DNA of 27,853 bases, taken from the IMG/VR virus record IMGVR_UViG_3300006924_000125, positions 1 to 27,853 of that record; one strand, given 5' to 3'. Source of the DNA: a virus. A model generated the notes under the pieces. The model was not told where the DNA came from. It made no database searches and saw only the letters and a program-made list of their open reading frames with translations. This document shows positions 1-17,102 of this stretch, in pieces (position 1 is the stretch's first letter; every line of letters starts with the position of its first letter). A program made the translations under genes and the position numbers.

Positions 1-330
1 ACACTTGATACCACCGTTACCATATACAAGTCCGTTGGTAATGTTCTTGCCTGCCCAACTAATAACATCAGTGGGTCCAATTTTATCCATGTCAACGTCA
101 ACACTAAAGAAAGCATCATGTACAATATTGTCTGCATCAATTGTAATAAACCTATCAGTCTCTGCCATCTGTGCTGCGGCCTTGTGTGCTGCATCACTTC
201 CTTCTACGCCATGACTACGTTTAGCCCACGGGCATTTGTCTAGCAAGTCTGCATAGTTCTCATCTGCATTAGGCTCGTCGTAGCTGATATATACAATATC
301 AAATTCATTAATACTTTGTATGTTACTCAT
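1..330 (-). CDS. Glycosyltransferase-like protein, C-terminus beyond window
   Basis: This frame stays open from the ATG at 330 to the left edge (110 codons seen), so the gene is partial. The visible part looks like the N-terminal half of a GT-A-type glycosyltransferase: a beta strand near residues 11-17 (DIVYISY), then ITIDADN at residues 62-68, whose D65-A-D67 fits the metal/nucleotide-sugar binding DXD motif. Near the cut edge is the run NGLVYGNGG, which I recall from uncharacterised proteins of marine T4-like phages (not checked). The start overlaps the upstream gene by 8 bases (ATGAGTAA), so it is probably translationally coupled and the last visible member of the cassette starting at 3362. 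The substrate is unknown; phage or host glycan, DNA base or virion protein are all possible. Confidence 0.6.
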   Translation of the reverse strand, partial: MSNIQSINEFDIVYISYDEPNADENYADLLDKCPWAKRSHGVEGSDAAHKAAAQMAETDRFITIDADNIVHDAFFSVDVDMDKIGPTDVISWAGKNITNGLVYGNGGIKC

Positions 331-1297
331 TCTTTTCTCCGTGGTAATTTACTGTCAACTTTTTATTCTTAAATGTAATTATAGGATTAGCTGGCCAATT
401 ATCTGGCAAATCTATTTCTATCTTATTATTAAGCAACTTGTCAGTGTTAAATGTTAAAGTGTTGACATAGTTGTCAATTTCTTTATCTGATACATGTAAT
501 GCTAACTTAGGTTTGTTATCAAAGTAATACATTGTATCTGGATTGACTTCGCTCTTAATAATTAACTTATCATTTAATGTATACATATTTATGTGTGCGT
601 TTTCACCTATGTTTGCATATTGATGCGGCCGCTGGTTGTTATCATCAGCAGCTGATATTGTAACATCGCTAAATTCAATACCATAGCATTCAAACACAGG
701 CTTAGTGAAAAAACTTATTTCATCCCAACTATTAATATGACGTGTTATATTAGGTGGAACTTGTATATAAAGATGTCTTTCATTAATTAATTTAATTGCA
801 TCAACTGGAATAACACCAATCATATAATCCGGATCATTCTTCCTACAAAGATAAAGATCTAGTATGCTTGTGTTATCTTGTTTGATACTATTGATTTGTC
901 CTAGGTTTAACGACTGTTTAATTGTAGTTAGATTAATTTCCATCTTGATAGTATTAGTTGCACGTATAACTTTAATATATACATCACATATACTTGGATC
1001 TCTTTCTAGTGCTTGATTTAGTTTCTCGCCCTTGGTCTTTAATTCTAGCACTGAACTTTTTACATCAATGTCCCAAACCTCATTAAATAGATCCCAATGA
1101 ACTGCATACTTATTAATCTTTTTCTTGCCTGATATTAAATGCTTGCATACATTATTTGTGGATGCTGTTACTTCTTCGTCTTCGGTTGTAGTAACAAATG
1201 GTCGTGGACCAATACTCAGTATTCTGCCTGAGTTTTTATTAAATCGAATATACCACGTTTTACTTTGTGATGTTGCTGTAGTAGTCTCTTTGCTCAT
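323..1297 (-). CDS. Unknown 324-residue protein of the glycosyltransferase cassette
   Basis: I do not recognise a named family. The N-terminus is Ser/Thr-rich, followed by WYIRFNKNSGRILSIGPRP (about residues 15-33), a stretch I associate with uncharacterised marine myovirus proteins. The rest is mixed and apparently beta-rich, ending in segments such as NPIITFKNKKLTVNYHGEKNE. No signal peptide or membrane segment is visible. The ATG at 1297 lies inside the end of the upstream gene, giving a 38-base out-of-frame overlap; no Shine-Dalgarno is seen, so translation may depend on coupling. The start is kept because the conserved-looking N-terminal segment begins just after it. Its place between glycosyltransferase-like genes and downstream of tail-fibre-like genes suggests a role in virion or surface modification, but that is inference from position. 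Confidence 0.7.
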   Translation of the reverse strand: MSKETTTATSQSKTWYIRFNKNSGRILSIGPRPFVTTTEDEEVTASTNNVCKHLISGKKKINKYAVHWDLFNEVWDIDVKSSVLELKTKGEKLNQALERDPSICDVYIKVIRATNTIKMEINLTTIKQSLNLGQINSIKQDNTSILDLYLCRKNDPDYMIGVIPVDAIKLINERHLYIQVPPNITRHINSWDEISFFTKPVFECYGIEFSDVTISAADDNNQRPHQYANIGENAHINMYTLNDKLIIKSEVNPDTMYYFDNKPKLALHVSDKEIDNYVNTLTFNTDKLLNNKIEIDLPDNWPANPIITFKNKKLTVNYHGEKNE

Positions 1298-2111
1298 TAA
1301 ATATTTCGTCTGTTAGGAATTCATTCTCATGGTAACTTAGTGTTCCATTGATTGCATAGTTTTGAATTTTAATTTTTCCATTAGCACTTGACCAAATGTT
1401 TAACTTATCAGTCCACTTGGTTATTTTACCTAATGCACCCGACTCTACACTATTTTTCATATCAATGTATTGTAATACATTATGATGTGCAACTACATTG
1501 TCACCTGTGTGTGTAGCAACAAGCGTGTGCATAACATCAACATCAAAGAAGTCTGGTATGTGTTGAGGCTGTAAAAATTTAACACAAGTGTCTTTCCAAT
1601 ATTGAAAATAAACATCTGCTAATTTAAAATGACGTAGTGATACGTTATTCTTTTTAAAGAAGAACATGTTAGCGTAAACTATGTTTAAATTGTATTCACT
1701 TTCTAAATCGTCTTGATATTTTAGATTAATTTTATTTTTTCTAATATCATTGACTTGGTTTGGAAATACAATATCATAATGATCTATTAAATAATCCCAC
1801 ATGCTAGTTTGATCATCTTTGACCAATGACTTGCAATCTATCGCTATTGTATTTTCATATGGACTACTCCAATATAGCTGCCAATCATTCTGTCTACATG
1901 TTGTATGTTTTTTAAATGGTAATTCTGCAACTGCATCAAATCCTGTTAGGAAAGAACTTTCTACTTTATTGCTGTCTGGAACTACTAGTGTTACACTAGC
2001 ATCTGGCATCTTACTTTTAATTGAAAATGCACAACATTGTGCTTGTCTAAACTCAATTGGATTAACTGCTATAATTACATAACCGTTCTCTGATATAATT
2101 TCACTATTCAT
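1260..2111 (-). CDS. Glycosyltransferase-like paralogue with degenerate DXD
   Basis: This 283-residue protein aligns by eye with its upstream neighbour (2104-3012). Shared landmarks are SSPYENTIAIDCKSLVKDD here against YSPFSKTLLLDTDYIVKN there, the following hydrophobic strand with aromatic residues, and a late FFDVDVMHTLVATH segment matching LFRTDYCVSIAVH. The expected DXD has become D92-C-K94, which should weaken or remove metal and sugar-nucleotide binding unless other residues replace it. It may be a non-catalytic partner, a regulatory subunit or an enzyme of changed specificity. It overlaps the upstream gene by 8 bases (ATGAATAG). No secretion signal is visible, so it probably acts in the cytoplasm. 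Confidence 0.6.
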   Translation of the reverse strand: MNSEIISENGYVIIAVNPIEFRQAQCCAFSIKSKMPDASVTLVVPDSNKVESSFLTGFDAVAELPFKKHTTCRQNDWQLYWSSPYENTIAIDCKSLVKDDQTSMWDYLIDHYDIVFPNQVNDIRKNKINLKYQDDLESEYNLNIVYANMFFFKKNNVSLRHFKLADVYFQYWKDTCVKFLQPQHIPDFFDVDVMHTLVATHTGDNVVAHHNVLQYIDMKNSVESGALGKITKWTDKLNIWSSANGKIKIQNYAINGTLSYHENEFLTDEIFNEQRDYYSNITK

Positions 2112-3012
2112 TAAAGAACTCCATAAGTTTTGGCTTTATTCTTGATAATGCACGTTTGTTCATAACATGCAAGTCTAAATTTTTATGATTAATTAATATG
2201 TTCTTCCATTCTTCTTTTGTGTCGTTACCAAGACAGATCCAATCTTGTAGATTATTAACATCGACTATATCATCTTTTTGAGATAGAAAATACATTGGAT
2301 GGTCATCAAAGTTATGAACAGCATCACCATCTTCCATTCCATTTAGTATATGAACCGCAATACTTACACAATAATCTGTTCTAAATAGTTTATGTGGGAA
2401 ATTATATAAGAATTGATAGAACTCATAGTTCTCTGCAATATGAGCCCATAGCTCAAAAAACATTTTACTAAAGTCGCTACGATCAAAATATACAACTGTG
2501 CTCCACCACATCTTAATACCGCCTGGGTATAGTAACACTTCGTTTATGTGTGGTTTCTCATTTCTAGCACTTATGGCATTGTTAAACATTGCAACACCTT
2601 CATATGCCATACTGCGTAGTAAGAATTTATTTTTTACAATGTAGTCAGTGTCAAGTAATAATGTTTTTGAAAATGGACTGTATTCCCATACCTTGTGCTT
2701 GTTGCTATTGCTGAACTGTGCTTTAAATTCTGTCCATGGACTATCATAGTGTCTACGCTCATTAGGTCTGAACTCATCTTCTGTTATTTTTATATAATCA
2801 AAAGACTCATTGATAACTTCATCTTCTTGTGACTGTTTCATCCATGCATATGTTCCAGCATCAGTAATTATACAAACTGGTAAGTTAAGATATTCTTTAA
2901 CATATCGAGAAGCTAGTATTGCCAGATCAACATAATCTAAATGCTCATTATTATAAACAAAGAAGCACACACCTTCGTCTTCTTTGTATGGTTGCACTTT
3001 GTATTCGCTCAT
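2104..3012 (-). CDS. Glycosyltransferase-like protein (GT-A type, DXD present)
   Basis: I choose the ATG at 3012 (302 residues), not the in-frame TTG at 3018, because the ATG makes a TAATG stop/start junction with the upstream gene, the arrangement used repeatedly in this genome. The fold looks like GT-A: an N-terminal Rossmann-like start (GVCFFVYNNEHLDYVDLAILA), VCIIT around residues 46-50, and TLLLDTDYIVKN with D121-T-D123 as the DXD motif. Later come an aromatic strand (WWSTVVYFDRSDF) and FRTDYCVSIAVH. The protein is soluble, with no membrane segment. It pairs with the DXD-degenerate paralogue immediately downstream. Acceptor and donor sugars cannot be deduced; nearby fibre genes make fibre or host-surface glycan modification plausible. 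Confidence 0.65.
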   Translation of the reverse strand: MSEYKVQPYKEDEGVCFFVYNNEHLDYVDLAILASRYVKEYLNLPVCIITDAGTYAWMKQSQEDEVINESFDYIKITEDEFRPNERRHYDSPWTEFKAQFSNSNKHKVWEYSPFSKTLLLDTDYIVKNKFLLRSMAYEGVAMFNNAISARNEKPHINEVLLYPGGIKMWWSTVVYFDRSDFSKMFFELWAHIAENYEFYQFLYNFPHKLFRTDYCVSIAVHILNGMEDGDAVHNFDDHPMYFLSQKDDIVDVNNLQDWICLGNDTKEEWKNILINHKNLDLHVMNKRALSRIKPKLMEFFNE

Positions 3013-3362
3013 TACCAATCCATTATTGTTTTGATACTTCTAGACTTTCGTAGTTTTTGGTATTCAACATCATACTCTTGTGTAGCACTAATATATTGAT
3101 CTACTAATTTATCAAGCAGTTCAGTTAGGTCAGCAACTTGAACTGGATTATCTTTTGAATCAATTAAGACTGTATTTTTACTTTTGTCAAGATCAATTAA
3201 TGTCTTTACAAATGCAATTGTTTCTTGATTTGCAACAAACACACCTGCTTGGTGATGCACTAATTGTAATTGTGCTACTCTATTTTTAATATTTCGTTTT
3301 TGATTATTAAGTGTTAGAGTGTAATTACTAAACTCTAACGCTTTCTCAAGACGTTCGTCCAT
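3012..3362 (-). CDS. Small charged helical protein, first gene of the cassette
   Basis: A 116-residue soluble protein of unknown function. The N-terminal third (RLEKALEFSNYTLTLNNQKRNI) and C-terminal half (LTELLDKLVDQYISATQEYD followed by basic KLRKSRSIK) are predicted by eye to be amphipathic helices around a short beta-like middle (NTVLIDSKDNPVQV). From memory, similar short proteins occur in marine T4-like phages without assigned function. The start is supported by GGAG at 3371-3374, eight bases upstream. It is first behind the double promoter at 3388-3425, so it should be the most directly expressed cassette gene, and its stop overlaps the next start in TAATG. Confidence 0.75.
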   Translation of the reverse strand: MDERLEKALEFSNYTLTLNNQKRNIKNRVAQLQLVHHQAGVFVANQETIAFVKTLIDLDKSKNTVLIDSKDNPVQVADLTELLDKLVDQYISATQEYDVEYQKLRKSRSIKTIMDW

Positions 3363-3387
3363 AGAAAATTCTCCTAGTTTATATACT

Positions 3388-3416
3388 ATAATACGCTAAT
3401 TGTGGGGTTTTGTCAA
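3388..3416 (-). promoter_or_regulatory. Host sigma70-type promoter for the glycosyltransferase cassette
   Basis: On the minus strand, TTGACA (3416-3411) is followed by a 17-base spacer and TATTAT (3393-3388). This is a perfect -35 box, ideal spacing and a five-of-six -10 box. The predicted start near 3381 leaves a short leader containing AGGAG before the ATG at 3362. It is the only such match I noticed on the minus strand between genes. Confidence 0.75.
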
Positions 3417-3417
3417 G

Positions 3418-3425
3418 TATTTATT
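3418..3425 (-). promoter_or_regulatory. T4-type late promoter element AATAAATA
   Basis: The minus strand reads AATAAATAC, seven of eight bases matching the T4 late consensus TATAAATA recognised by RNA polymerase carrying gp55. It lies just upstream of the sigma70-type promoter, so late transcripts would start near 3412 with a leader of about 50 bases. In such AT-rich DNA chance matches occur; the support is its intergenic position and its likeness to elements at 6064, 20606 and 25983. Confidence 0.55.
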
Positions 3426-3427
3426 AT

Positions 3428-3441
3428 CGACGTAGACGTCG
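3428..3441. repeat. Short perfect inverted repeat
   Basis: CGACGT and ACGTCG are separated by two bases, which can form a 5-bp GC-rich stem with a four-base loop. It lies 14 bases past the stop of the tail-fibre-like gene ending at 3455 and immediately upstream of the late element at 3418-3425. No T-run follows on the minus strand, so it is not a typical intrinsic terminator. It could protect the 3' end of the fibre transcript or bind a protein. Confidence 0.45.
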
Positions 3442-3454
3442 GTAATTGTAACGG

Positions 3455-4558
3455 TTAGCTAACAGCCGTCCATGGAGTTACTTGAGATATGAGTGGAGCG
3501 GTACGCTCTGTAAATATATAGTCTACACCAGTTGCTGGTGAGAAATAATCGTGTGCTGATGATTCACTTGGCTCTGGTGTGTTTAATGGTTGTGAGAATC
3601 CAAACTCACCTACAATATTTGTATTGATAGATGATCCATCTTCATCGTCTTCGGTAAGTTTTATTTTTACATGTATTTCAAATTGATTTGGATTAGTGTT
3701 AAGAGTTCCTCTTAACTCAATTTGAAATCTTCGTTGTGAATATATACCACCTGGTGAATTATAACCACCATTAGAATATGCACTTTCAACATAATCATCT
3801 GCAGCAACATTGTATACTGTTACCCAATCAGCAAGAACAGGAGTTGTTCCATTATCAACGCCAGTTAAACTATAAAAGCCTTTTGCACCACCAAGACTAC
3901 TATAAGGTCCATCGCCTTCACCGTCACCGTCATTGGTTGTAGTTTCTGCACCTACTCGGACAATACCTAAGTTTTCAAAGAATGAATTCCATGCCAATGA
4001 TGGTGGGTTTGTGCCACCAACAGTAGAAGACATATCAATAATTAATTCTCCACCACTATTAAAAAAGTGTCTAGCTTTGTTGTAATCTGTGAATACAAAT
4101 TTATGTTCACTATACAAATCGTCTGGCCAAGGTGTGCTACTGTTTGATGTAGTAACAATAGCAGTATTAACATTTTTTGAAGAAGGGTCTATATTAAACT
4201 TCTTTGGTTCTATAACGTTGTCGTATACATTCTCTAATTGAGTATATAAAGTTGCTGATATTGAAGTTGAAGATGAACGTTTAACTTGTAGAGAAGCAAC
4301 ATCTTCTTCAATGTGCCATAGTCCTGCGTTAATCTGTGCAAGTAAATAATTTGTATGTTCTGCTGTAATTGTTGTAGATTGTGCTACAGTTGGTATAACC
4401 GCTGGTTGTCCCCAGCCTTTTCTTCTAGGAAATTCACTAGAATGATTTGTGTCGTATGAATATGAGCCGCCTTGCCAGAAAGCATTGTATAAGCTAACTA
4501 ACTCGTTAAACTGTGTGGCAGTAATATTCTCACCAGCTTGTAATCCACTAACAGGCAT
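3455..4558 (-). CDS. Tail-fibre-like virion protein
   Basis: A 367-residue protein with the look of a phage tail appendage. An N-terminal region resembles attachment domains (AGENITATQFNELVSLYNAF, residues 8-27), with a helical stretch around residues 65-95. A segment FVFTDYNKARHFFNSGGEL (154-172) is, from memory, common in fibre-like proteins of marine phages. A Gly/Asp-rich loop (NDGDGEGDG, 209-217) precedes a beta-rich, Ser/Thr/Asn-rich C-terminal part with a strand FQIELRGTLNTNPNQFEIHVKIKL split around NPN. No transmembrane segment or signal peptide is present. It begins one base after the stop of the preceding fibre-like gene and is probably cotranscribed from the late element at 6064. 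The receptor cannot be inferred. Confidence 0.65.
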   Translation of the reverse strand: MPVSGLQAGENITATQFNELVSLYNAFWQGGSYSYDTNHSSEFPRRKGWGQPAVIPTVAQSTTITAEHTNYLLAQINAGLWHIEEDVASLQVKRSSSTSISATLYTQLENVYDNVIEPKKFNIDPSSKNVNTAIVTTSNSSTPWPDDLYSEHKFVFTDYNKARHFFNSGGELIIDMSSTVGGTNPPSLAWNSFFENLGIVRVGAETTTNDGDGEGDGPYSSLGGAKGFYSLTGVDNGTTPVLADWVTVYNVAADDYVESAYSNGGYNSPGGIYSQRRFQIELRGTLNTNPNQFEIHVKIKLTEDDEDGSSINTNIVGEFGFSQPLNTPEPSESSAHDYFSPATGVDYIFTERTAPLISQVTPWTAVS

Positions 4559-4559
4559 A

Positions 4560-5444
4560 TTACTTTACCCCAACTACTACTTCAACTAATCCAACGCCTA
4601 ATGTGTCTTTATTCTCTAATGCTCTGCCCACTACACGGAACCAATCCATGCCTACTTCTTTTTCGTAATCTGTTACTGCTCTAGCTACACCTGGTGTATC
4701 ACTTGCAATTAAACGTTGTCCCTTATGAACTTCGCCAATAACTTTGCAAGGAACTCTACCTTCTAGTGCTACTGGAACTGTGGTGCCTTCTGCGCCACTG
4801 TTCATTAAGTATGCTGGGTTACTTGATATAATACCAAATACTTCTGGACAGTATTCAATTGTTGTTTGTGTTACTTCAGCTTCGCCGCCAATTTTAACAA
4901 CTGTGCCTGCTTCATACTCTGCATCACTTGTGTAAAGTTCTGCAAGGTCGGCGTATTCTGCTGTAGTTGCCGTTCCGTGCATTTTCATGCCTGTGCCTAG
5001 TGTTATTCCTACTTCTATTTCGTTACCTGGAAATAAAGCATTGTGGTAATCTGACTCACTTGCATGAATTGTAAATTTAGCATTGCTAAATGCTGCAATT
5101 GGTGTCCCTTCGGATTCAACTACAAATACATCATGTGGATTATTTGATGTATCTTTAATTGATTTCTGATTGAATGTTGTTCCATTCCAGTTGGCTCCAT
5201 CATATACTTTAAGTGTAGATGCTGCATCATGATACCATAATTGACCTGCTGTTGCGTTAGCTGGTTCTGTTGTTTCTTTTGCAAAATTTTCTAATAGGTC
5301 TACAAAGTTTTGAGCTACTGCTTGACCATATCCAAAATAATCTTTACCAACAAGTTGTAAGTCGGTTTCTGTATTAAGGGTGCCGTATTCTACTGTTATG
5401 TCTGTAGCTGTTAGCTTATTAAGTCTGTTAATTGTGTATGCCAT
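4560..5444 (-). CDS. Tail-fibre-like protein with DLAE-type C-terminal domain
   Basis: This 294-residue protein has two recognisable parts. Residues 30-86 (LVGKDYFGYG, then FVDLLENFAKETTEPANATA, then GQLWYHDAASTLKVYDG) match a module frequent at the start of marine T4-like fibre proteins. Residues 163-294 (EYADLAELYTSDAEYEAGTVV, ISSNPAYLMN, VALEGRVPCKVIGEVHKGQRL, VVGRALENK) match a beta-rich C-terminal domain common on marine phage appendages, similar to intramolecular-chaperone/peptidase-G2-type ends; I cannot confirm self-cleavage. GGAG inside the end of the upstream gene, about nine bases before the ATG, supports the start. The likely role is host recognition or a short accessory fibre. 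Confidence 0.7.
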   Translation of the reverse strand: MAYTINRLNKLTATDITVEYGTLNTETDLQLVGKDYFGYGQAVAQNFVDLLENFAKETTEPANATAGQLWYHDAASTLKVYDGANWNGTTFNQKSIKDTSNNPHDVFVVESEGTPIAAFSNAKFTIHASESDYHNALFPGNEIEVGITLGTGMKMHGTATTAEYADLAELYTSDAEYEAGTVVKIGGEAEVTQTTIEYCPEVFGIISSNPAYLMNSGAEGTTVPVALEGRVPCKVIGEVHKGQRLIASDTPGVARAVTDYEKEVGMDWFRVVGRALENKDTLGVGLVEVVVGVK

Positions 5445-5447
5445 TTT

Positions 5448-6038
5448 TTATACTCCTGCTCTGATTCTAAGCGAATACAGAATTTCTATTTTCCTATTGC
5501 TAGATTTTTGAATAGGATGAAAAATTAAATGTGTAAGGAATGATCCGCTTTCTGTTACAAGTGCAATCTCATCAATAACAAAATTATCGTTAGTTGTAAA
5601 GTCTGTTGCATTATCTGATGCTTGTTGTAATGCAGGTTCGTTATAATCAAGTATAACTTTTACTGTTATGTCTGAATATGGATTACTTTCTGCATCAACT
5701 ACATCAATACTGTCAACTGCCAGCGAAAAATTAGTTCCTGCTGGTTGTTCTAATGGTTCGTATAATGCGCCATGCACACCATCTACTTGTGGATTTCTAT
5801 AAGTGATATTACCATTAGCATCAATAAGAGTGCCGCCTTTTCCAAACGCCATCTCTTCAATGAAGAACTGCTCACCATTCACTGATTTGTTTGCAAGCAG
5901 GTTTGAAACTGCAAAAGCAAAGTTTTGAAAGTTAATAGCATTATGTTTGTCTAATAATACTTCACCGGTGTCCATGTCTTTAATTACACAGTGACCATCT
6001 ACTGAAATATTTGATTGTTCGTTATAATTGTTTTTCAT
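5448..6038 (-). CDS. Conserved virion structural protein (marine T4-like)
   Basis: A 196-residue protein without a T4 name that I can give. Its N-terminal pattern (GHCVIKDMDTGEVLLDKHNAINFQN, about residues 15-39, interrupted only by ordinary variation) and FIEEMAFGKGGT (59-70) recall proteins found after the baseplate genes in cyanophages and other marine T4-like phages. The C-terminal half is beta-rich (DITVKVILDYNE, NFVIDEIALVTE, RKIEILYSLRIRAGV), consistent with a baseplate or fibre connector. It has its own late element (6064-6071) and a good Shine-Dalgarno (AAGGAG near 6052-6057), so it heads the fibre transcript instead of relying on the giant gene upstream. Confidence 0.65.
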   Translation of the reverse strand: MKNNYNEQSNISVDGHCVIKDMDTGEVLLDKHNAINFQNFAFAVSNLLANKSVNGEQFFIEEMAFGKGGTLIDANGNITYRNPQVDGVHGALYEPLEQPAGTNFSLAVDSIDVVDAESNPYSDITVKVILDYNEPALQQASDNATDFTTNDNFVIDEIALVTESGSFLTHLIFHPIQKSSNRKIEILYSLRIRAGV

Positions 6039-6063
6039 TGCTGTCCGCCTACTCCTTATATAC

Positions 6064-6071
6064 TATTTATG
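6064..6071 (-). promoter_or_regulatory. T4-type late promoter element CATAAATA
   Basis: The minus strand reads CATAAATAG in the 51-base gap between the giant gene and the 196-residue structural gene. A start about six bases downstream (near 6058) gives a leader that begins just before AAGGAG and ends at the ATG at 6038, a compact and sensible layout for a late gene. Confidence 0.65.
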
Positions 6072-6089
6072 CCAATTGTATTTTTGCAT

Positions 6090-9000
6090 TTATAGTATAG
6101 TTCCTTTTCCTATTCCGTTCAACATAATAGCTTCTGCTGAGGTTGAACTATCTAAAATTGTTGTGTTATCGTCATTAAACCTTTTATCTGCTGAAGAAGT
6201 TACATAATGTAATGCATTATCAGTAACATCAGTAATGGTTGTGCCAGTTGTATGTTTGTTTGCAAATGTTAGATTTAATCCACGTTTTTTAATATAAATT
6301 ACACCGCCAACGTTTTGAACTTGTATTATTTCATTGTTAACTAATACTAATTCTGCTGTTGCAAATTTACTTGGGTCAGCAACTGCTAACACTGTGTCAC
6401 TCATATTAAGATCTGCTGACAGTGTAGATGTTTTTGCATCTTCCATTCCATATACATGCTGATACTTGTTTATATCAAGCATATATGCAAATGTTCTTGT
6501 TTCAGTTGTATCAGTTGACCCTGATCTGTTTGTTTGCACTTTAATTATTGCTGTTTCTTGTGGTCTAATATCTGCGTCAGTTGATATATTTTTGTTGCCA
6601 TTATTTGCTAATGTATAATACTCTGGCTGTAAACTGTCTCCGCCATCTACTATTGCAAATCCGCCTACCCCACTTATATCTATAAAGTTTGTTTGACTAT
6701 CGCCACCTATTAACTGTATTGGATTAGTAAATTCAAGTGTAACTGTAACAGTTCCCAATGGTGTTGAAGCAAAACTTATCGTTTGATCTACTAAGAAATA
6801 ATCAGTGTCTAATACTAATTCACTTACTCCGTCCTTAACTAACGTTGCATTCCATTCGGTCATATCTGCATCAGTTTTAGATATTACATAAGTGTTTGTT
6901 CCATTGTTAACTAATGTAACAGTTTTTTCTAATTCATTGTTTGCATCAAGCACAAGTCCATTAAAGTTAGTGCCTCTTGTATCTGCTTTAATTGTAATTG
7001 CTGAGTTGTGTTCTTCTGTAATTGCAAGCGGAACCTCTTCTTGTTTATTGAATGTTCTACTTGTCTCGCTTATTTTAACATGGAAAGGTTTAGCATCATT
7101 TACATATCCTTCAATAGTTGACAGCATATCCTTCTTATATTTTTTGACTTCTTTGAAATCACTTTTGACTTCTAGTCTGATATAAGATGTTTTCATTGCC
7201 CATTCAACTTGTTTAGTTCTTGACATTGCATAGTCAATCATTCCAAAGAAGAACTTATTAAATTTATGTGTATGTTCGTTTACAAATAATACATCTCTTA
7301 GTATTTGAACAATACCCTTCCACCAATCAGCAATAGCTTCACTGCTCCAGTTTACACTATCCCATGGTTCCATATCCCAGGTATAAGATTTAGCAAGACG
7401 TTCTTCAATCCAGTTAATAGTTGCGTTGCGTTTTTTACTTAAAACCCAACCAGTTGTTGTGTATCTATAGAATTCAGTTCTATCAACATTGTCATCATTA
7501 AATATTTCAATTCTAGCTGTTTGGTATTCGTCTGTATTAAGTGATTCTAATTCTTCTATATTCGTAACATTTTTTGTATATGTGTTAGAAAAATTATGTT
7601 CTGGTTCTATATAATCTGTCCATTCCCATGTATCATTAGGAATACCATTGTCGATAATTGATTGAAAGAATTTAGTTTTAAAGTCATTGTATACGTTTAC
7701 TGATACAAGTAATCTATTAATAATATCAAGTGCATTTTTTCTAGCTGATGCAATATCATCAAACCATGCTTGTCTGTTAGCTCTGTCATCGCCGTATCTT
7801 GCATACTCATGCTTGTTGAAATCTGGAATACGTAAGTCATCTTCGTCTATAGATGCTAGGTTACTCTTTAATCCTGTATACCAATGCGTGGGTATAATAT
7901 CTGTGTCTCTGCCCACAAGTATCCATTGAGCATGACTGTTATCAACTTTCTTATTTAATTGTAGCACAACTTTTTTATTTACAAAATCCCAAATGTCTGA
8001 TATAATAATAGCATCGCTGTCTACTACAGAGAACCAATATATTCCGTTTGCACTTGGATCAGTAATAATATTTTCTACTTCGCTTATAACAATGTTTTTA
8101 TCTGCAGAGCCAATTGTTTCTTTGTTACGCACCCAGAAATAATAAACACTTTCGTATTTGCTATTGGTTGCATTCCATTCACTACGTAATGTATAGTAAT
8201 ATTCATTTTGATTCTTTACTACGTCAAATTCAGCATAAGCTGTGCCACTTGCTGGCACACCAAACATCACTTTATTACTTGCAACCGCCTTTGTATAATC
8301 GTCTGGTGCAACTGAACTCTTGGTCCATTCCCAGATTGCAATTTCGCTACCTACAAATTGTTTAGCCCAATTAGATGTTTTATCTTTTATATCTCCCTGA
8401 TCATAATCGTAGTATCTTACTTTACTAGTATCCCACCAACGTTTACCTACTTCGGCATCTGCCCATGCACTATCATCGTCGGCTTCATATTCTTCTTCAG
8501 TTGATGTATTATATATTGCAACATCATGCACACTCTTAATATCAATTTCTGCATCAGCAACACCTGGAATAATTCCACGCATTGGATCAAATAATTCTAG
8601 ATCAAGCATAGGTGTATTAGTTTCGTAATCATAGACTGTAATATTGTCTAGGTCTGTATTTGTAATTCTAGTTGATTGACTTCTAGCCGGTATTTGAGAA
8701 GCTTCTACTTCAGATGCTGTTGACTGTGATAACGTGCCTGCAATATAACCTGCACCATCTGTTGAGTAAGTGGTTTCAAATACATTTATTGATCTTGTTC
8801 TTCCTTCATTATCTTTTTTGTCATAGTCTGAAAATATATTAGTTGTAGGAGGAACATTCCAACTATCACTTTGTAATGCAGCATTTCTATCTTCTATTGA
8901 TGCAAATCTTGTTGGACGCAATGTCATTATAGAGCTAGATGATCCACACTTATCAATGTATTCATCAATATAAAATGTTGTGGAGTCTTTAATTTTTGTA

Positions 9001-12000
9001 ACTTTGTGTATACCATCAATATTAGGAATAGTTGTTGTGTTTAACACCATTACATAATCGCCTAGTTTTAATCCGTGATTAATGTGAACTGTTATTTGTG
9101 CATCGTTTCCATCGGCAGTCATTGCGCCTGCACATATTCCACACGGCTCATTTTTTGTAAATTCATCCTCTGCGTTGTTTTGTAAATCTGCTGTATATAA
9201 TCCTTTGTTTTGAACTTGTAACACATTCCAACCAAAATGCTTTGTTGTAATACCGTTTATTCCTTTAACTTCGTAATCTGAATCGTTAGCAACCCAAATA
9301 TTAAACAATGCTGGATCTGTGTGGCTTATGTTTGTCCATTCATTTGATACAAATGTATTTTCTAGTGTATCATCTGATAGTTGATTTATTACTCCAGTTG
9401 ATGTTGTTAAGCCTGCTTGGACTAAGAAAGGATCTGTAGAACTTGCTGGTAATGTAAGTGTTGAATTAGTTGATGTAATATTTAAAAAATTACCTGTATC
9501 TGATACTGTGACTCCTGTAATACCATCAGCAATCAATTTGGCCTGTATATCGTTTACAGCTTGATTTAATGGGGTTTTTGCTTGAACTGTGCTAGTTCCA
9601 GCTTGATATGGGTCAATACTAAATCCTAATACGGTTCGTTGACTTCCACCAATTGTTAATTCTGTTCTGCTGCCGGCACTTACTAATCTCAACTGGTTAG
9701 ACTCATTTGATGCAGAAATATATGTAAGTCCAGGTGTATTGTTAATTGCGATTACAACTGCATCTAAATCCATATCTTGTTCTATTTGTTGTTTTTCTGC
9801 TGTAGGCAAGTCTTGCTCGCCTGTATCTTGAAATCCTAAAACTGAGTTTGTTGTTGATGCTGAAAGAGTTAAGAAACTTGTTTGAACCGTTGCCCAATAT
9901 CTGATACGTAATCTATTATCGCCGGTAAGGTCTGCTAGTATTGCCTCATCCACACCTGCTGTTGTGCTAACACTACTTGCTGTCAATGTATCGTTTATCT
10001 TAGTTACAATTTCTGCTGTAGTCATTCCAAGCACAACATGAGTTAGTGTTACTACAATAGCTTCGCCACCTGCAAATGTTGGAGTATTAAATGTAATGTC
10101 TTGTCCACTTACTGTAAAGTCTGTGTTTGCTGTTCCATCAACTGTAACACTGCCAACACTGTATGTTGAACTAGTTAGTGCTTGACTAATTGTGTATGTT
10201 TGCTGTGCCGCTACACCTGTGAAGTTTTCTATTACATCTGCTGGAGTTGTATCAAAGTCAACTACGTAACCATTTATTGTAATTGTTTTACCAGTGACAT
10301 ATCCATTACTACTATCAAATGCTGGGTTAATTGCATTGCCAGTTAATAATGCTGGTCCAGTAACAACATCAACTTCTTGCACATTAGTTAACGATACTGA
10401 AACACCGTCTATTGTCAATGTTGTGCTTGGTGTTGGTGCTAATACAACTGGGCTAGTTTCGGTGCCAAGGACAGAAATTGTATCGGTAGTTGTTGATGTA
10501 GTTCTTAATATTGTTTCACTTCCGTCAATAATAACTGATGTGTCGTAATCAAATTGAGCAAGTGATTTACTACCAACTAGCTCAATGACATCTGTTGACG
10601 TAGTTACAGTCGTGCTATCAACGTTACACTGATATAATGCACCTCTGTATCTTACTAAGTTATTTAATTTATAGCTTTTGTTATCTGCCCAAGTTTCAAT
10701 TATTGCATAATCTGATGTTGGTTCATAAACATTTGTAATTTCATTTAGTAGGTTTATTTTATATTTTGCTTCTGCGTCTAATAATGAACCAGCAGTTAAA
10801 TTACTTATGTCAACTTCTTTAATAGGCTGAGTAGTAAAGTTAGCTGCAACTTCAAATGGATTAACAAACCTTTTATCACCTGGTGCATAAACTAAAACAT
10901 CATCATATACTGTTCCCGAAGAGAACTTAATAGCTTGTGGAGATGTTTCAAAACTATTATTTTCTAATGTAAATTCTACTGCTTTTAATTTATCGGTATT
11001 ACCAAAGTAACTTCTAGACAACATATACTGTTCGTGAACTTTAATGTCCAGCTTATCATCAATAAACTTGCGTTCAATTTTATCTAGTCCTGTGGAAGTT
11101 CCTCGTTGCTTAATTAACCCTTGGTAATAATTACGTTTAGTTATTGAATCAAATTCATTGCCACTGATTGTAAGCTCGTTATTTGAATTACCAATTGTAA
11201 TATCTTCTAATTTTCTAACTGAAGGATTGAAATCTATTCCATCTGTTTTATAATAATCATCTACAGCCTGAACGCTACTATCAAAGTTTTCAACAATCTT
11301 ATCATCAAATACTAAGTAGCCTGGAGCTCGTTTATTACCGTCCCACTTATCTGTTATTAGTCCTCTAAATCTTATTTTCTCTTGTATAATGTTCTTTACG
11401 TTATCATACACAACAACACCAAAGTTTGTTTTGTTATTTAATAATGCAATATGTTCGTATTCAACTACAACAAATCCAGCCGAACCAATCATTGTATTAT
11501 CTTTTGTTTCTAATGTTAATGTATTATCTACTCTAGCTACTAGTAAGTTATCTGAATTAATTGTATTGCTTGTTGCATCAGTTATTGTATTTTCTTTAAA
11601 CACACCTGTGTTTAATTCCATAACGTTACCGTGTGTTGGTGCAAACTTAAAATTATTTCCTAAATCAAATGTTTTGCTTTCTTTAGGATTAGTCAATGCC
11701 CATTTGGCAAAACTAGCCGCTATACTATCTCCGCTGTATGGGAATTCAAATCCAATTGATTCTAAATAAGCATAGTATCCTCGTATAAATGAATATACAT
11801 CTTGTATTTTGTCAAGTGTTGCATTGTATTCTAATATACTATGTGTTGGTGCAAACTTTTTATATTTTCTAACTTGTGTGCCTACTATATCTACATTTTT
11901 AAACGAAGATGAGTTTGTATTGTCTGGTGCAAAGAAATTAAATTCTTGTTTACCATATCCGTTGCCACTAATTTTCCAACCTGGTTCTAACCATTCAACA

Positions 12001-15000
12001 GTTATCGAACTTGCAATTGCAATGTTAATTGGTGTGCTTTTATACATTTCTAGTGCAAAGTCATTTTCACTCAATGTATGATTTGCATCGTTATATGTTT
12101 GTGTTTTAAAATCTAGCAAGTGTTTGCTACTAAATCCACGTAACTGAGTTGATAAATGTGTGTCAATTCTAGTATGTAAGTTATCTAGATTATAATCAAT
12201 ATTATTGCGTAATGTATAATTGTATAGTGCTTGAACTATGCCGCTTGCTACGTGTTCTACTTCTTTTGTTTTAAATGTAAATGTAGAAGTTCCTATCTGT
12301 GCTGGATTAAAATTAGTATATACTGCTGGCAGTGTTGTTAGATTTCTACCACGCTGTGATAAACTTGCTCCAACTACATAACGCTTACCGTCATCTCCTG
12401 CGGTGCCAAATATTTCTGGGTAACTTGATTGTCTGTTGTCAAATGCTAATGTAACTTCAGCATCAACACTATCAGCTCCAACTAATCTTACAAATGTATT
12501 TGTATAAAATCTATCAATTGTTTTAATTTCAACATCAGAAACTACTCTGCCATATACTTTACCTGGTGTTGCAATAGAAGATGTTGTGTAAGTATTTAAA
12601 TTGTCTTTGTTTAAATAATCTAGTTGCTTTTTAGTAACTCGTAAACTAGGCGAATAGAATATACTGGATGCTTTTGTTGGATTTAATTTTACAATTGCAT
12701 CAATTAATGCAGCTTTACCGCTTGCACTATTTCTCCATTCAGCTTCTAATCCTGCATAATCTCCAAACGTAAAACGTTTTTGCTTTTCTTCATTTGTAAT
12801 ATTGTTGTTAGGATCTAATACTGTTTCGATTGACACTAATGCGCCATATGTATTAACTGGGCAATGATTATCCCAATCCCACATATGGTTTGCCCATTCT
12901 ATGTCTTGTCTGTCAGTTGATACTTGTCCACGTTTTAATGCACTTATAAGTGCAGCACGTTTTGTTACATCAGTCCAGCTATATTTTGCAAACCACCATG
13001 ATGGTTTAAATGCATATCCTAACATTTGCCACGGTGTTGAGTGTGGGGTGCTTGTTCCAAATAAAACTTCGTATGCACCTTTCCACTGACCAGGAAGTTT
13101 ATTAGTTCCAAATCGACCACCCGGTGCAACCGAACTAAAGTTCCAAGTATCTACATCAAGTGAATCATAATTAATTTTTATATCGCTACGTTTATTTTTT
13201 TCTTTCCACTGCGTGAATGATTTATACATTGCATCATTAATTGTTTCTAATGTATACCATGTTTCTCTTGTTGCGTTTGGTATAAACTTAGAAGTAAATC
13301 CATACTGTAAACTTTCAACACATGCGTCATCTGTATTAATACGATCACTAATAACTAATCCTGAATAAATTCTTTTTTCTAATTCAAACTGACATGCATT
13401 TATAACATCAAATGATTCAGAGTTCATATCAATTAACTTTGCAGTGGATCTTAAGTTCCACTGTGTTCCATCGTGTCCGATTAATGTATTCGTTGAAGTG
13501 TCCCATGTTGGAATCATACCAGAGGTAAGTTTAAGTTTTGTTAAACTTGGTGGAACATATGAGGCATTATCCATTGCGTGATGATGCACTATAATTGTTG
13601 GTTTAACTTCAGTTGGTGTTGCAATTGGCTGAAATGTAAATTCAATTAAATTTCCTGCTTGCCTATAGTCAACATCCTTAATTAATAATCGAGTTTCTAG
13701 TTTGATTCCATTCCAGTCTGTCAAGTAAACATAAACATGATCTTGTATGTTGTCATCGCTGTGAATATTATCTTTTAAAAATATTCTAGGATTGTTATTG
13801 ATATCTGTCCAAACAAATTTTTCTAATCGAGAACTATTTGTATAAACCATGTTAGATGTTTTAAATAATTCTCCGCCCTGTCTAGTAACTGTAATTGCTT
13901 TAATTGTATCATCAACTAAGTCGTTAATACTTTTATAAGTGTTAGCTTCGTATAACCTAACTACTTGACTTCTAAATCTATTTTTAAAGTTATCCCAATC
14001 TTCTCCGGTAGTTGCTAATGCGTTTGTAATGTTAATTGAATCGTTGGCATACAAGGCATCATGCACAATACTTAAATCAGTATGAATGAAAATCTGGCCA
14101 CCAAAGTAATGTTGCTTATTAATTGCATCATAATTGTTGACACCAAATACATCACCTTCAAATCCTGGAGTAGAAGTTATTATGTCTTGCCAATGGGTTA
14201 ATGTTTCGCCCATTGTAAAAGTTTTTAATATTTCGTTATTTGGATTATGTTTTAAAGTTTTAGGTAATGACAGGTTTGTGGTTCTGTTTTTATTATTATT
14301 ACTTGCATATTTTAAATCAACAACATCATCTACATTTAGTTTTTCTTTTGGTATAACAATTGTATCTGCATTGATTGTATAATTATTAGGACTTAACTGC
14401 TTACCATTAACTTCTACTGTATGCTGAATACTATCATAGTTGTCAAGTGGTATAATTGTATAGTCATTTGTTAATGTTGCATCTGCTGGGTCAATAATAA
14501 TTTTGCTACTGTATGTAGTAAGTGATAAGGTAATATCATTTCCACTTCTTGTTACAGTTACACCTGCTTGTGGAGTTGTTTCAATGTCAACACCAGCTAC
14601 AGTTTTAAATCTAACATCACCAGTTTCCAATAAGTTGTTAAATACAACAGGTATATTTTTACCTACATATATGTTTGTGTGGTCTACATTTGTTTTGTCT
14701 AAGTAAACACCGTTTTGTATTTCTGTTACTACACATTCTTTATTTTGCTGATGTAATGCAATACGTCTATCTGCTCTCCATGAACTGTGTCCAGTATTAA
14801 TTGTAAAGTCTGAACTTACACTATCTACATCATATGTTTCTAATGTTTCTGCTCCACTAATTTCTTCACTTTGCTTGTATAGATTAGTTAATTTATCATT
14901 AACTTTAAATAAGTTTTGTCCTATTATCTGTCTATGGTAATTTGTGTCTTTATTAAATTGAGATGTAATACTTTGAAATTGTGTTTCAGTAAACAAATAA

Positions 15001-17102
15001 TTTTCAAACTGATACTCACCAATGCCATTAATGTCTTTATATGATAATGGTATGCTTAATTCAGGATCGGTTGTGCCTGTTCCTATTTTGTAGTTAAAAA
15101 GTCTACTACCTTGAAACTTGCCGCCTTCTAGTTGTTCTACTGCTAATCCACCAGTTGTATAAAGTTTAAACAGTGGCATTTGGTTAATAGTTGTGCGTTG
15201 TTGCCCAGTGCTCCATTTTGTTCCATCAAAGAACACATCACTATTTGACCAAATCTTATCTTCAGTATCCGGTAATGCTTCCCTTACATATGCACAATTA
15301 TTTTCTGTTAAAGAAATACCTTCTGTTAATACTCCATTAGAACCTACTTCCCAAATTTTATTTGATAAGTCACCTTCTGTGAATGCAATTCTCTGGTTAC
15401 CTTTTATTTCAACCTTACTTAAATCTAACGAGTAGACTGGTCCAGCTGATTCTGTTGGCGCATAATCACCAATAGGTTTAACCATAAAGTCAATTACACC
15501 AGTCCAATGACTATCGCCTAAGTCTGGTGAGTAATTTGCCCACTGCCACATATTTAATTTGCCGTCAAACTCAATAATAGGTCTCTTTGCAATAAACTTT
15601 GTATCAGTTAATGCTTCAATATTAATACCACCGTATATAAGTTCGTTGACCTTTTTAAGAGTATCAATATCTGTCCATTTGTTATTTCTGCTCCATGCGG
15701 TTCTAAATGGGCTATCTGTTTCTATTACTTGATAATCTTTTTCAGTAAAGATTACTGTAGACTTATCGTAATTTTGTGTATCAAATCCTTCTAGTCTATC
15801 TTTATATTTTGCCCATACTGTTTCGTCTGTGCCCGGCACAATAAACTGTTCCCACTTGCCAGGATTTGTTCCTATTTGCTTTGCATCAACAATTAATATA
15901 AAATCAATATCACCTGTTACATTGTCTACTGTTGTATACCATATCTTATGATAGTCAGCATCGGGTAGAATTGGCTGACTTATCCCATTGGGATCGATAA
16001 TGCTCCAGCTATCTGAGAATGATATTAGCTCTCCTTCTATAAATTGTGTTTTGTTTGACTCTTCGTTTGTAAATACAAATCCATCAAATATTGGTAAGCG
16101 ATTAGCGTCTACATTATAACTTCCCTTCATCTCACTAGGTGTTGTAGCAGGACTATATAATGAACTTGATTTGTTAGGATCAACATCAGTTATTTTACTT
16201 TTATCCCATATTCCACCTACTGTTACTGTAGTTTTTGTTGTCTCCGGATATAATGTCTGTCGCATTGGCCAGCTATATATGTTGATCAGTTTAAGCTCTT
16301 TGCCTGTTCCTGTAACAAGATATGTTTTTGTGCGTGAATCTGAATGCCATCCATCGCCAACAAATTTAATAAGCATTTGGTCTGCTAGATCAAATGTATT
16401 GTTGTTATCTATAATTGTATAAGATAATTGATCAGTTAACATTTCTACTGGATTAACTACACTTGTAAATCCTGCATTATTATTGTTCCTAGTATAAATT
16501 GCATCTGTTGTTCCGCTTGGTTGCCAAACTTTAACATTGTCATCCCATTGATAAGTTTTTGTGCTTACTCCATCATTAAGTGCAAAGTAATCACCATGTG
16601 ATGGGTTTGCAGGATATGATGAGCCCGATGTTACTGTCCCTACAGTTGCAGCATCAAGTGTTCTAATACTTTCGTATGTAGGCATTTGATCAACCCACGC
16701 ATAATTTTGATAGTCTACAAACTTGTGTATGTTAATAGGAGGTCTGTAACTATATGATTTTGTTGCGTATGCTGTATTATAATTGTATTCGCTAAAGTTT
16801 ATGTTAATTGCATTTGCAATGTCGTCCATTGTAATTGCGTCTACTAATTTGTTATCAGTATTTGTAATTACAATTGCAGGATCTAATTTTCCATTTTCTA
16901 AATAAACATCGCCTTGAGATCTATTGTTTCCAGATTTATCACCAATGTAGCCTTCTACATTCTTTAGGCGACCCTTTGAAATCATTTGGTCTAATGTGCT
17001 GTCAAGCCATTTTTTATTTACATCAGTATTAAAGACCTGAGGTAATAAATTTGCCGATTTTATATTTGGAGTTTTATAACTTCCTGATTTTTTCTTAGAC
17101 AT
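6090..17102 (-). CDS. Giant baseplate/tail structural protein, 3670 residues
   Basis: An uninterrupted 11-kb gene covering about 40% of the window. It follows gp6, the place of gp7 in T4, but is over three times the length of T4 gp7 (1032 residues), and I cannot show homology. The start is supported by a short AGGATAAG before the ATG. N-terminal NLLPQVFNTDVNKKWL (19-34) is typical of giant structural proteins in marine T4-like phages, from memory. Further landmarks: beta-rich NG...D(Y/F) modules near nucleotides 14300-14490, 13570-13755, 10040-10215 and 6725-6940; a W...Y...G..Y carbohydrate-module-like segment near residues 2136-2157; hook-protein-like repeats near 2190-2570; HGLKLGDYVMVL near 2672; RYGDDRANRQAWFDDIASAR near 3102-3121; and a C-terminal LSADL...VNNEIIQV...KRG...H..G motif near 3558-3624. 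The likely role is a baseplate-to-fibre scaffold or peripheral baseplate arm. Confidence 0.75.
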   Translation of the reverse strand: MSKKKSGSYKTPNIKSANLLPQVFNTDVNKKWLDSTLDQMISKGRLKNVEGYIGDKSGNNRSQGDVYLENGKLDPAIVITNTDNKLVDAITMDDIANAININFSEYNYNTAYATKSYSYRPPINIHKFVDYQNYAWVDQMPTYESIRTLDAATVGTVTSGSSYPANPSHGDYFALNDGVSTKTYQWDDNVKVWQPSGTTDAIYTRNNNNAGFTSVVNPVEMLTDQLSYTIIDNNNTFDLADQMLIKFVGDGWHSDSRTKTYLVTGTGKELKLINIYSWPMRQTLYPETTKTTVTVGGIWDKSKITDVDPNKSSSLYSPATTPSEMKGSYNVDANRLPIFDGFVFTNEESNKTQFIEGELISFSDSWSIIDPNGISQPILPDADYHKIWYTTVDNVTGDIDFILIVDAKQIGTNPGKWEQFIVPGTDETVWAKYKDRLEGFDTQNYDKSTVIFTEKDYQVIETDSPFRTAWSRNNKWTDIDTLKKVNELIYGGINIEALTDTKFIAKRPIIEFDGKLNMWQWANYSPDLGDSHWTGVIDFMVKPIGDYAPTESAGPVYSLDLSKVEIKGNQRIAFTEGDLSNKIWEVGSNGVLTEGISLTENNCAYVREALPDTEDKIWSNSDVFFDGTKWSTGQQRTTINQMPLFKLYTTGGLAVEQLEGGKFQGSRLFNYKIGTGTTDPELSIPLSYKDINGIGEYQFENYLFTETQFQSITSQFNKDTNYHRQIIGQNLFKVNDKLTNLYKQSEEISGAETLETYDVDSVSSDFTINTGHSSWRADRRIALHQQNKECVVTEIQNGVYLDKTNVDHTNIYVGKNIPVVFNNLLETGDVRFKTVAGVDIETTPQAGVTVTRSGNDITLSLTTYSSKIIIDPADATLTNDYTIIPLDNYDSIQHTVEVNGKQLSPNNYTINADTIVIPKEKLNVDDVVDLKYASNNNKNRTTNLSLPKTLKHNPNNEILKTFTMGETLTHWQDIITSTPGFEGDVFGVNNYDAINKQHYFGGQIFIHTDLSIVHDALYANDSINITNALATTGEDWDNFKNRFRSQVVRLYEANTYKSINDLVDDTIKAITVTRQGGELFKTSNMVYTNSSRLEKFVWTDINNNPRIFLKDNIHSDDNIQDHVYVYLTDWNGIKLETRLLIKDVDYRQAGNLIEFTFQPIATPTEVKPTIIVHHHAMDNASYVPPSLTKLKLTSGMIPTWDTSTNTLIGHDGTQWNLRSTAKLIDMNSESFDVINACQFELEKRIYSGLVISDRINTDDACVESLQYGFTSKFIPNATRETWYTLETINDAMYKSFTQWKEKNKRSDIKINYDSLDVDTWNFSSVAPGGRFGTNKLPGQWKGAYEVLFGTSTPHSTPWQMLGYAFKPSWWFAKYSWTDVTKRAALISALKRGQVSTDRQDIEWANHMWDWDNHCPVNTYGALVSIETVLDPNNNITNEEKQKRFTFGDYAGLEAEWRNSASGKAALIDAIVKLNPTKASSIFYSPSLRVTKKQLDYLNKDNLNTYTTSSIATPGKVYGRVVSDVEIKTIDRFYTNTFVRLVGADSVDAEVTLAFDNRQSSYPEIFGTAGDDGKRYVVGASLSQRGRNLTTLPAVYTNFNPAQIGTSTFTFKTKEVEHVASGIVQALYNYTLRNNIDYNLDNLHTRIDTHLSTQLRGFSSKHLLDFKTQTYNDANHTLSENDFALEMYKSTPINIAIASSITVEWLEPGWKISGNGYGKQEFNFFAPDNTNSSSFKNVDIVGTQVRKYKKFAPTHSILEYNATLDKIQDVYSFIRGYYAYLESIGFEFPYSGDSIAASFAKWALTNPKESKTFDLGNNFKFAPTHGNVMELNTGVFKENTITDATSNTINSDNLLVARVDNTLTLETKDNTMIGSAGFVVVEYEHIALLNNKTNFGVVVYDNVKNIIQEKIRFRGLITDKWDGNKRAPGYLVFDDKIVENFDSSVQAVDDYYKTDGIDFNPSVRKLEDITIGNSNNELTISGNEFDSITKRNYYQGLIKQRGTSTGLDKIERKFIDDKLDIKVHEQYMLSRSYFGNTDKLKAVEFTLENNSFETSPQAIKFSSGTVYDDVLVYAPGDKRFVNPFEVAANFTTQPIKEVDISNLTAGSLLDAEAKYKINLLNEITNVYEPTSDYAIIETWADNKSYKLNNLVRYRGALYQCNVDSTTVTTSTDVIELVGSKSLAQFDYDTSVIIDGSETILRTTSTTTDTISVLGTETSPVVLAPTPSTTLTIDGVSVSLTNVQEVDVVTGPALLTGNAINPAFDSSNGYVTGKTITINGYVVDFDTTPADVIENFTGVAAQQTYTISQALTSSTYSVGSVTVDGTANTDFTVSGQDITFNTPTFAGGEAIVVTLTHVVLGMTTAEIVTKINDTLTASSVSTTAGVDEAILADLTGDNRLRIRYWATVQTSFLTLSASTTNSVLGFQDTGEQDLPTAEKQQIEQDMDLDAVVIAINNTPGLTYISASNESNQLRLVSAGSRTELTIGGSQRTVLGFSIDPYQAGTSTVQAKTPLNQAVNDIQAKLIADGITGVTVSDTGNFLNITSTNSTLTLPASSTDPFLVQAGLTTSTGVINQLSDDTLENTFVSNEWTNISHTDPALFNIWVANDSDYEVKGINGITTKHFGWNVLQVQNKGLYTADLQNNAEDEFTKNEPCGICAGAMTADGNDAQITVHINHGLKLGDYVMVLNTTTIPNIDGIHKVTKIKDSTTFYIDEYIDKCGSSSSIMTLRPTRFASIEDRNAALQSDSWNVPPTTNIFSDYDKKDNEGRTRSINVFETTYSTDGAGYIAGTLSQSTASEVEASQIPARSQSTRITNTDLDNITVYDYETNTPMLDLELFDPMRGIIPGVADAEIDIKSVHDVAIYNTSTEEEYEADDDSAWADAEVGKRWWDTSKVRYYDYDQGDIKDKTSNWAKQFVGSEIAIWEWTKSSVAPDDYTKAVASNKVMFGVPASGTAYAEFDVVKNQNEYYYTLRSEWNATNSKYESVYYFWVRNKETIGSADKNIVISEVENIITDPSANGIYWFSVVDSDAIIISDIWDFVNKKVVLQLNKKVDNSHAQWILVGRDTDIIPTHWYTGLKSNLASIDEDDLRIPDFNKHEYARYGDDRANRQAWFDDIASARKNALDIINRLLVSVNVYNDFKTKFFQSIIDNGIPNDTWEWTDYIEPEHNFSNTYTKNVTNIEELESLNTDEYQTARIEIFNDDNVDRTEFYRYTTTGWVLSKKRNATINWIEERLAKSYTWDMEPWDSVNWSSEAIADWWKGIVQILRDVLFVNEHTHKFNKFFFGMIDYAMSRTKQVEWAMKTSYIRLEVKSDFKEVKKYKKDMLSTIEGYVNDAKPFHVKISETSRTFNKQEEVPLAITEEHNSAITIKADTRGTNFNGLVLDANNELEKTVTLVNNGTNTYVISKTDADMTEWNATLVKDGVSELVLDTDYFLVDQTISFASTPLGTVTVTLEFTNPIQLIGGDSQTNFIDISGVGGFAIVDGGDSLQPEYYTLANNGNKNISTDADIRPQETAIIKVQTNRSGSTDTTETRTFAYMLDINKYQHVYGMEDAKTSTLSADLNMSDTVLAVADPSKFATAELVLVNNEIIQVQNVGGVIYIKKRGLNLTFANKHTTGTTITDVTDNALHYVTSSADKRFNDDNTTILDSSTSAEAIMLNGIGKGTIL
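9400..10430 (-). repeat. Three degenerate hook-protein-like repeats within the giant gene
   Basis: The encoded region (about residues 2225-2570) holds three diverged units with one pattern: a helix with an IN or I-x-A core (IVTKINDTL; AVVIAINNTPG; AVNDIQAKLIADG), then strands of type LRI/LRL/LNITS, then a strand ending in SVLGF or TVLGF in the first two units and an equivalent VQAGL in the third. The first unit starts with ITINGYVVDF and carries an inserted beta module. This layout recalls repeats in flagellar hook-associated (FliD-like) and phage structural proteins. Boundaries are by eye; DNA identity between units is low. Confidence 0.45.

Follow-up and report, generated by a model that had tools for sequence, protein, structure and literature searches.

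A candidate dual sigma70 and late promoter at the head of a putative glycosyltransferase cassette in a T4-like phage

The transcription of a phage gene in more than one phase of infection is known from T4, where gene e (lysozyme) and I-TevI are transcribed both early or middle and late, and where the late promoter is located just upstream of the ribosome site (described in the accessible part of PMC3014915). The glycosyltransferases of large aquatic phages form a second point of reference. In the accessible parts of the sources they are read as enzymes that decorate the virion, protect the DNA or change the host surface (PMC12619734, PMC7029224), and for glycosyltransferases that occupy a similar place in pelagimyophages the authors propose modification of the host O-chain against co-infection; in the same study, middle or late promoters could not be found (PMC7029224). 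The promoter class of phage genes of the glycosyltransferase type is a direct and testable clue to when they act.

The present work examines the gap at the head of a five-gene cassette of this putative type in a stretch of DNA, referred to here as the window, which comprises a 27,853-nucleotide (27.9-kb) virus record of a T4-like phage. The baseplate wedge gene of this phage (17119-20214) matches jumbo phages at 34-36% identity (Erwinia pEa_SNUABM_47, Agrobacterium Atu_ph07, Sinorhizobium Phosso, Salicola SCTP-2 and Klebsiella K64-1), and no cultured relatives were found by tblastn with the 116-aa gene at the cassette head and the cassette genes GT1 and GT3, or by a DNA search with positions 1-8000 of the window. 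On the evidence of these searches, the phage family that carries the cassette is known from metagenomes only. A single 3670-aa ORF takes up 11 kb of the minus strand (6090-17102), with the tail genes on one side and the baseplate wedge gene on the other.

Parts of the gap and their arrangement

The gap (3363-3454) contains, in minus-strand order, a 5-bp hairpin, the late-promoter box AATAAATA, a sigma70 host-type promoter TTGACA-17-TATTAT, the Shine-Dalgarno sequence AGGAG of the first cassette gene and its ATG; all of these parts had been listed by an initial annotation of the window, and all were found on the minus strand as given. The sigma70 site (3388-3416, minus strand), which is identified by its sequence and by its conservation in relatives, is made up of TTGACA at 3416-3411 and TATTAT at 3393-3388 with a 17 bp spacer between them; it scores 11/12, its -10 ends 25 bases before the ATG, and about 0.01 such site would be expected by chance on one strand of 92 bases. 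The late box (3418-3425, minus strand), which is of the T4/gp55 type, is assigned from its sequence and from box counts in relatives, and one base separates it from the -35. The AGGAG (3371-3375, minus strand) is assigned by sequence, and the ATG is at 3362. Standard spacing places the predicted sigma70 start at about 3381, 7 bases past the -10, and the predicted late start at about 3412, 6 bases past the late box.

These positions bear on the explanation that early transcripts are made but left untranslated, for which T4 gene e provides a precedent: its ribosome site is masked by upstream RNA, which the late start removes (accessible part of PMC3014915). In the window, however, the predicted sigma70 start is downstream of the late start, and the resulting leader would be only about 19 bases long with a ribosome site that is mostly open, GAGAA being unpaired in the predicted fold. 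Silencing of early transcripts in the manner of gene e therefore does not fit, and this explanation is very improbable.

The hairpin (CGACG-TCTA-CGTCG, 3428-3441, minus strand) is an inverted repeat with an RNA energy of -7.5 kcal/mol and a z of -2.5. Among 12 aligned sequences it is present in the window and in L002, which is a near-copy of the window phage in this comparison, and it is missing from the other ten. The gene upstream of the gap (3455-4558, minus strand) has an early stop in the same two sequences and is about ten residues longer in L003 and L005; its C-terminal end is WTAVNYLTVTITGV in L003, WTAVNYLGVTITGV in L005 and WTAVS in the window. The old coding end of this gene is still legible in the window's gap, and the hairpin sits in that remnant. 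As it is a coding relic without a T tract and is restricted to two sequences, it was rejected as a terminator or a conserved element: the GC-rich hairpin of the initial annotation exists, but it is not a conserved part of the layout.

The gap is the sole minus-strand gap of the window with an 11/12 sigma70 site; at this level the earlier statement that no other such gap holds a host-consensus promoter is borne out, since the other gaps of at least 25 bases are without one. The motif NATAAATA occurs in all four minus-strand gaps of at least 25 bases, at 3425, 6071, 20613 and 25990. The tail genes immediately upstream of the cassette have a late box and no sigma70 site, which agrees with the earlier remark that the cassette is unlike the structural genes around it. 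A gp55-type late sigma factor is encoded at 26058-26942 on the plus strand (PHROG 12791, E 4.6e-93), with its own TTGACT-16-TATAAT. Divergent from this gene, a cytidylyltransferase-like gene (25358-25966, minus strand) stands first in the late minus-strand block and has a CATAAATA box ahead of it.

Conservation of the sigma70 site and distribution of the late box

A single match to a host promoter might be a product of chance in AT-rich DNA, in which case the cassette would be purely late. Such an explanation is favoured by the number of looser matches (at least 9/12), which is 56 in one half of the window and 59 in the other and does not exceed that in shuffles, and by the presence of one perfect 12/12 match inside a CDS. 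It is opposed by the conservation of the site. The 41 virus loci found to carry the 116-aa head gene yield 28 distinct upstream gaps, and a sigma70 site of at least 11/12 is present in 26 of these 28 (dinucleotide shuffles: mean 0.13, maximum 2); the corresponding controls give 0/28 gaps on the reverse strand and 2/924 tiles of upstream DNA, and the two gaps without the site are those of L067 and L069. The hexamers and the 17-base spacing are constant across the relatives, while the flanks and the spacer sequences vary. Over the 69 bases that precede the ATG the window does not differ from L003, although the head gene does so at 4/35 fourfold sites, and 67/68 bases match in L005, where that gene differs at 10/34. 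With the site also conserved in all 45 heads of the near clade described below, a chance match is rejected, and a purely late cassette is the least probable of the explanations considered here. Long, operator-like palindromes were seen at the cassette heads of L067 (gap before 4001) and L135 (gap before 5022), the latter spanning the sigma70 site.

The perfect in-CDS match, TTGACA-17-TATAAT at 21189-21161 on the minus strand, lies within the CDS 20648-21373. In a survey of 80 loci with repeats counted once, it scores 12/12 in 7 of 8 distinct close relatives, 10 in the remaining one and 8 in 2 distant ones, the 55 other rows being uninformative because the search pattern missed the place; spacer changes in the close relatives are synonymous. 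As a second dual promoter this site is unsupported, and amino-acid constraint suffices as an explanation.

The phylogenetic extent of the sigma70 site was mapped on a tree of GT3 (328 aa), the relatives of which number at least 559 loci in the viral collection. Of these 559, the 80 best were retained and 74 used (six have little upstream DNA); 68 have the head gene, and 57 are distinct. The tree splits the 57 distinct rows into a near clade of 45 and a far, or sister, clade of 12 with support 97/98; because it is midpoint-rooted, it leaves undecided whether the site was gained or lost. The window is left out of the tree since its GT3 is cut, and it is represented there by L084, which comes from the same contig as L002 and has the same gap as the window and an identical GT1.

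Near-clade heads have a sigma70 site of at least 10/12 in 45/45 cases (shuffles 1.7) and of at least 11/12 in 40/45 (shuffles 0.12), compared with 46/1456 and 6/1456 tiles internal to the cassette. Far-clade heads reach 10/12 in 1/12 cases. Six far-clade records nevertheless contain between 3 and 23 strict TTGACA-16/18-TATNAT matches each (G016 10, G017 23, G018 22, G019 8, G020 6, G021 3), so the mostly late-only heads of this clade do not result from a lack of the motif, and their existence means that the cassette does not strictly need a head promoter of the host type. Among 20 chosen loci, matches within cassette coding sequence were seen in the far clade at 11 and 12 of 12 in the closely related L147, L148 and L159, the 12/12 match falling inside cassette gene 4 near 7641, and once at 11 in L142; some internal transcription of the cassette from these matches is conceivable.

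The NATAAATA late box is present in 24/45 near-clade heads (shuffles 3.3, maximum 8) and in 10/12 far-clade heads (shuffles 0.66, maximum 4). Its position relative to the sigma70 site in the near clade is not fixed. The box is inside the sigma70 spacer in 22/45 heads (17 NATAAATA, 5 NCTAAATA), upstream of the -35 in 5/45 (4 NATAAATA, 1 NCTAAATA), which is the type of the window, and downstream of the -10 in 3/45; 15/45 heads have neither NATAAATA nor NCTAAATA, and 6 more have NCTAAATA only. Several records with NCTAAATA at the head use NATAAATA at another late gap. Another promoter of composite type, in which a late box lies within a 16-base sigma70 spacer, was noted before a 170-aa gene at L175 (G010 220711-220738, minus strand).

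The heads without a box, and the movement of the box where there is one, would be expected if only the sigma70 promoter worked, the late box being a chance product of AT-rich DNA and late cassette RNA being readthrough from the tail operon; transcription from the box at 6071 could read through into the cassette, since the hairpin lacks a T tract. The excess of the box over shuffles in near-clade heads argues against this, as does its restriction to the coding strand (0/28 gaps in the reversed-strand control), and far-clade heads keep the box in 10/12 cases when 11/12 are without the sigma70 site. A cassette head at which only the sigma70 promoter works is thus distinctly unlikely, though less so than untranslated early transcripts.

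Promoter classes in a large relative and the expected order of use

The association of each promoter type with genes of known class was examined in G010, a 221,643-base relative whose genes were located by a simple gene caller. The gaps of G010 have late boxes ahead of the genes for the portal, the tail sheath, the terminase, a virion structural protein and tail fibres. Sigma70 sites (at least 11/12, within 120 bases) precede the genes for the gp55-type sigma, dNMP kinase, DNA polymerase and peroxiredoxin, the site of the DNA polymerase gene falling in the preceding coding sequence by these gene calls; an endolysin-like gene (212285) also has a sigma70 site, and the DnaB helicase gene has both promoter classes. 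Of the genes in the late-strand block 6272-38567, none but the cassette head has a sigma70 site at a distance of up to 120 bases, and the two further 11/12 matches of the block are both in coding sequence. Over the whole record, both signals occur in 4/266 genes, where 4.8 would be expected under independence. Dual signals are therefore not favoured generally in G010, and the case for the pair at the cassette head rests on its conservation.

The location of the sigma70 site inside a long late operon suggests another possible function, which is to top up late transcription or to relieve polarity, with activity throughout infection or mainly late. The division of classes in G010 speaks against this function, in that sigma70 sites precede early-type genes and no other gap of the block 6272-38567 has one, and in the window the neighbouring late operons are likewise without a sigma70 site. 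Such a supporting role is unlikely, if somewhat less so than a sigma70 promoter acting alone.

The reading that is considered probable is that the gap 3363-3454 constitutes a compact dual promoter which would give early (sigma70) and then late (gp55) expression of the cassette. From the arrangement of the sequence we infer the following order of events. Soon after infection, host RNA polymerase with sigma70 would start at TTGACA-17-TATTAT alongside the early genes, producing a transcript with a short leader and an open AGGAG. Once a gp55-type sigma had been made, polymerase would begin at AATAAATA, some 30 bases further upstream, together with the transcription of the preceding tail genes. The sigma70 and late sites are probably too close for joint occupancy, so that the first would give way to the second, and in the near-clade layouts two polymerases would be rivals for a single place. 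Selection in the near clade would fix the sigma70 promoter, while the late box would be rebuilt upstream of it, inside it or downstream of it. The early-plus-late reading had already been put forward in the initial annotation, together with a job inside the infected cell: the part concerning the two promoter types agrees with their presence far above chance in relatives, but the cellular role is not readable from the cassette itself.

The cassette and its place among known systems

The cassette lies on the minus strand. Its first gene (3012-3362) encodes the 116-aa protein, for which a confident model (pLDDT 86.5) gives a helix-beta-beta-helix-beta-beta-helix arrangement; the nearest protein is an uncharacterised phage protein, and there is a weak likeness to DUF4376 phage proteins. 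PDB matches to the model (Z 7.7) are helical hairpins such as prefoldin, and were set aside as a common arrangement. The second gene (GT1, 2104-3012; about 302 aa, D120xD122) is a putative GT-A glycosyltransferase by motif only, the third (GT2, 1260-2111; 283 aa) is a putative GT1 relative at a level that is not significant, and the fourth (323-1297; 324 aa) is fast-evolving and without a family match. The fifth (GT3, 1-330) is cut by the window end, and in relatives it is a highly conserved protein of 328 aa with D65xD67.

The name glycosyltransferase, which the cassette had been given at the outset, is consistent with the DxD motifs, which follow a hydrophobic strand and are invariant as D120 and D122 in 21 GT1 sequences and as D65 and D67 in 23 GT3 sequences, and on these motifs GT1 and GT3 are designated as putative glycosyltransferases. 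The motif is unclear in GT2. The name finds no usable match in Pfam, however: GT1 and GT2 match no family, glycosyltransferase models are matched by 0/21 GT1 sequences, and 1/23 GT3 sequences has a match (E 0.049). The GT1 fold model is poor (pLDDT 44), and profile comparisons of GT1 with GT3 (P 0.098) and with GT2 (P 0.044) are not significant, though the motifs align.

The order 116 aa, GT1, GT2, 324 aa, GT3, with genes that mostly overlap or are a few bases apart, is kept over the tree in the 46 of the best 80 GT3 loci that were used and in 20 chosen loci. The five-gene unit described initially is therefore retained in relatives, but the run extends beyond it there, with variable genes that include radical SAM/SPASM and phosphopantetheinyl transferase-like genes and a fusion of cytidylyltransferase and mannose-6-phosphate isomerase domains. 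The regions after the core differ among L002 (9670-12317), L005 (9668-12193), L007 (9651-12209) and L010 (9652-11966), where other genes are without assignment.

A role of the cassette inside the infected cell is plausible. Since sister-clade heads are mostly late-only and have the same five genes, such a role is not deducible from the cassette as such. Gtr-type lipid-linked transferases are expected to show membrane helices; a hydropathy scan of the five proteins found none, so no transferase of that type is apparent among them. DNA glucosylation of the T4 type needs a hydroxymethylase of the thymidylate synthase family, and PF00303 was found in 1/8 records, which may be fragments, and not in the 221-kb G010. 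Like a moron, the cassette has its own host-type promoter amid late genes; variation in presence and absence among close relatives, which would also mark a moron, was not seen at the 68/74 GT3 loci that could be read in this respect, all of which have the head gene in place. The most economical guess is that the cassette would modify a target present early (cell surface, DNA or a host protein) and that late expression would continue the supply. A more ambitious proposal is that selection holds the promoter pair together as one half wanders and one phase excludes the other, and that in one clade alone the composite promoter brings early control to a sugar-transfer cassette linked to the tail genes, whose enzymes would remodel the infected cell, for instance to counter superinfection, and afterwards act for the virion; in this full form, the proposal is speculative and rather unlikely to hold.

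The near clade with its host-type start and the sister clade mostly without it, both with the same five genes, constitute a natural comparison, and the dual promoter provides a concrete sequence for testing the hand-over of T4-like genes from sigma70 to gp55. The cassette resembles T4 gene e and I-TevI in that T4-like genes are reached by early-type as well as late transcripts, but the early transcripts of those genes start further upstream and RNA structure blocks their translation (accessible part of PMC3014915), whereas the host-type promoter of the window is local and downstream of the late box, with a short open leader predicted. As in T4-like late promoters (TATAAATA, gp55), NATAAATA stands before structural genes and a gp55-type sigma is encoded; the first base of the box is relaxed, as it is in RB49, KVP40 and S-PM2, and the CTAAATA variant (NCTAAATA type) is the form of the late promoters of Aeh1 (accessible part of PMC1524935). 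Here, unlike in those promoters, the box adjoins a sigma70 promoter or falls within one. T4 early promoters are likewise a class read by host polymerase, but their -35 is GTTTAC (PMC1524935, same part) and that of the window is the host consensus TTGACA, so the window promoter is not of the T4 early type.

The pelagimyophage host recognition cluster also has putative glycosyltransferases and radical SAM genes beside tail genes in the structural region, but GT8 is the commonest family there (accessible part of PMC7029224), and no GT8 match was found in the 8 records examined in the present work. Moraphages, by their description, are large aquatic phages with four core groups of putative glycosyltransferases and a sigma factor; they differ in that their predicted hosts are Bacteroidota (accessible part of PMC12619734). 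A literature search gave no description that was recognised as this promoter among the matches listed. What is known, then, is that T4 genes can be read in two phases, and what is new is a promoter layout that is local, composite and wandering.
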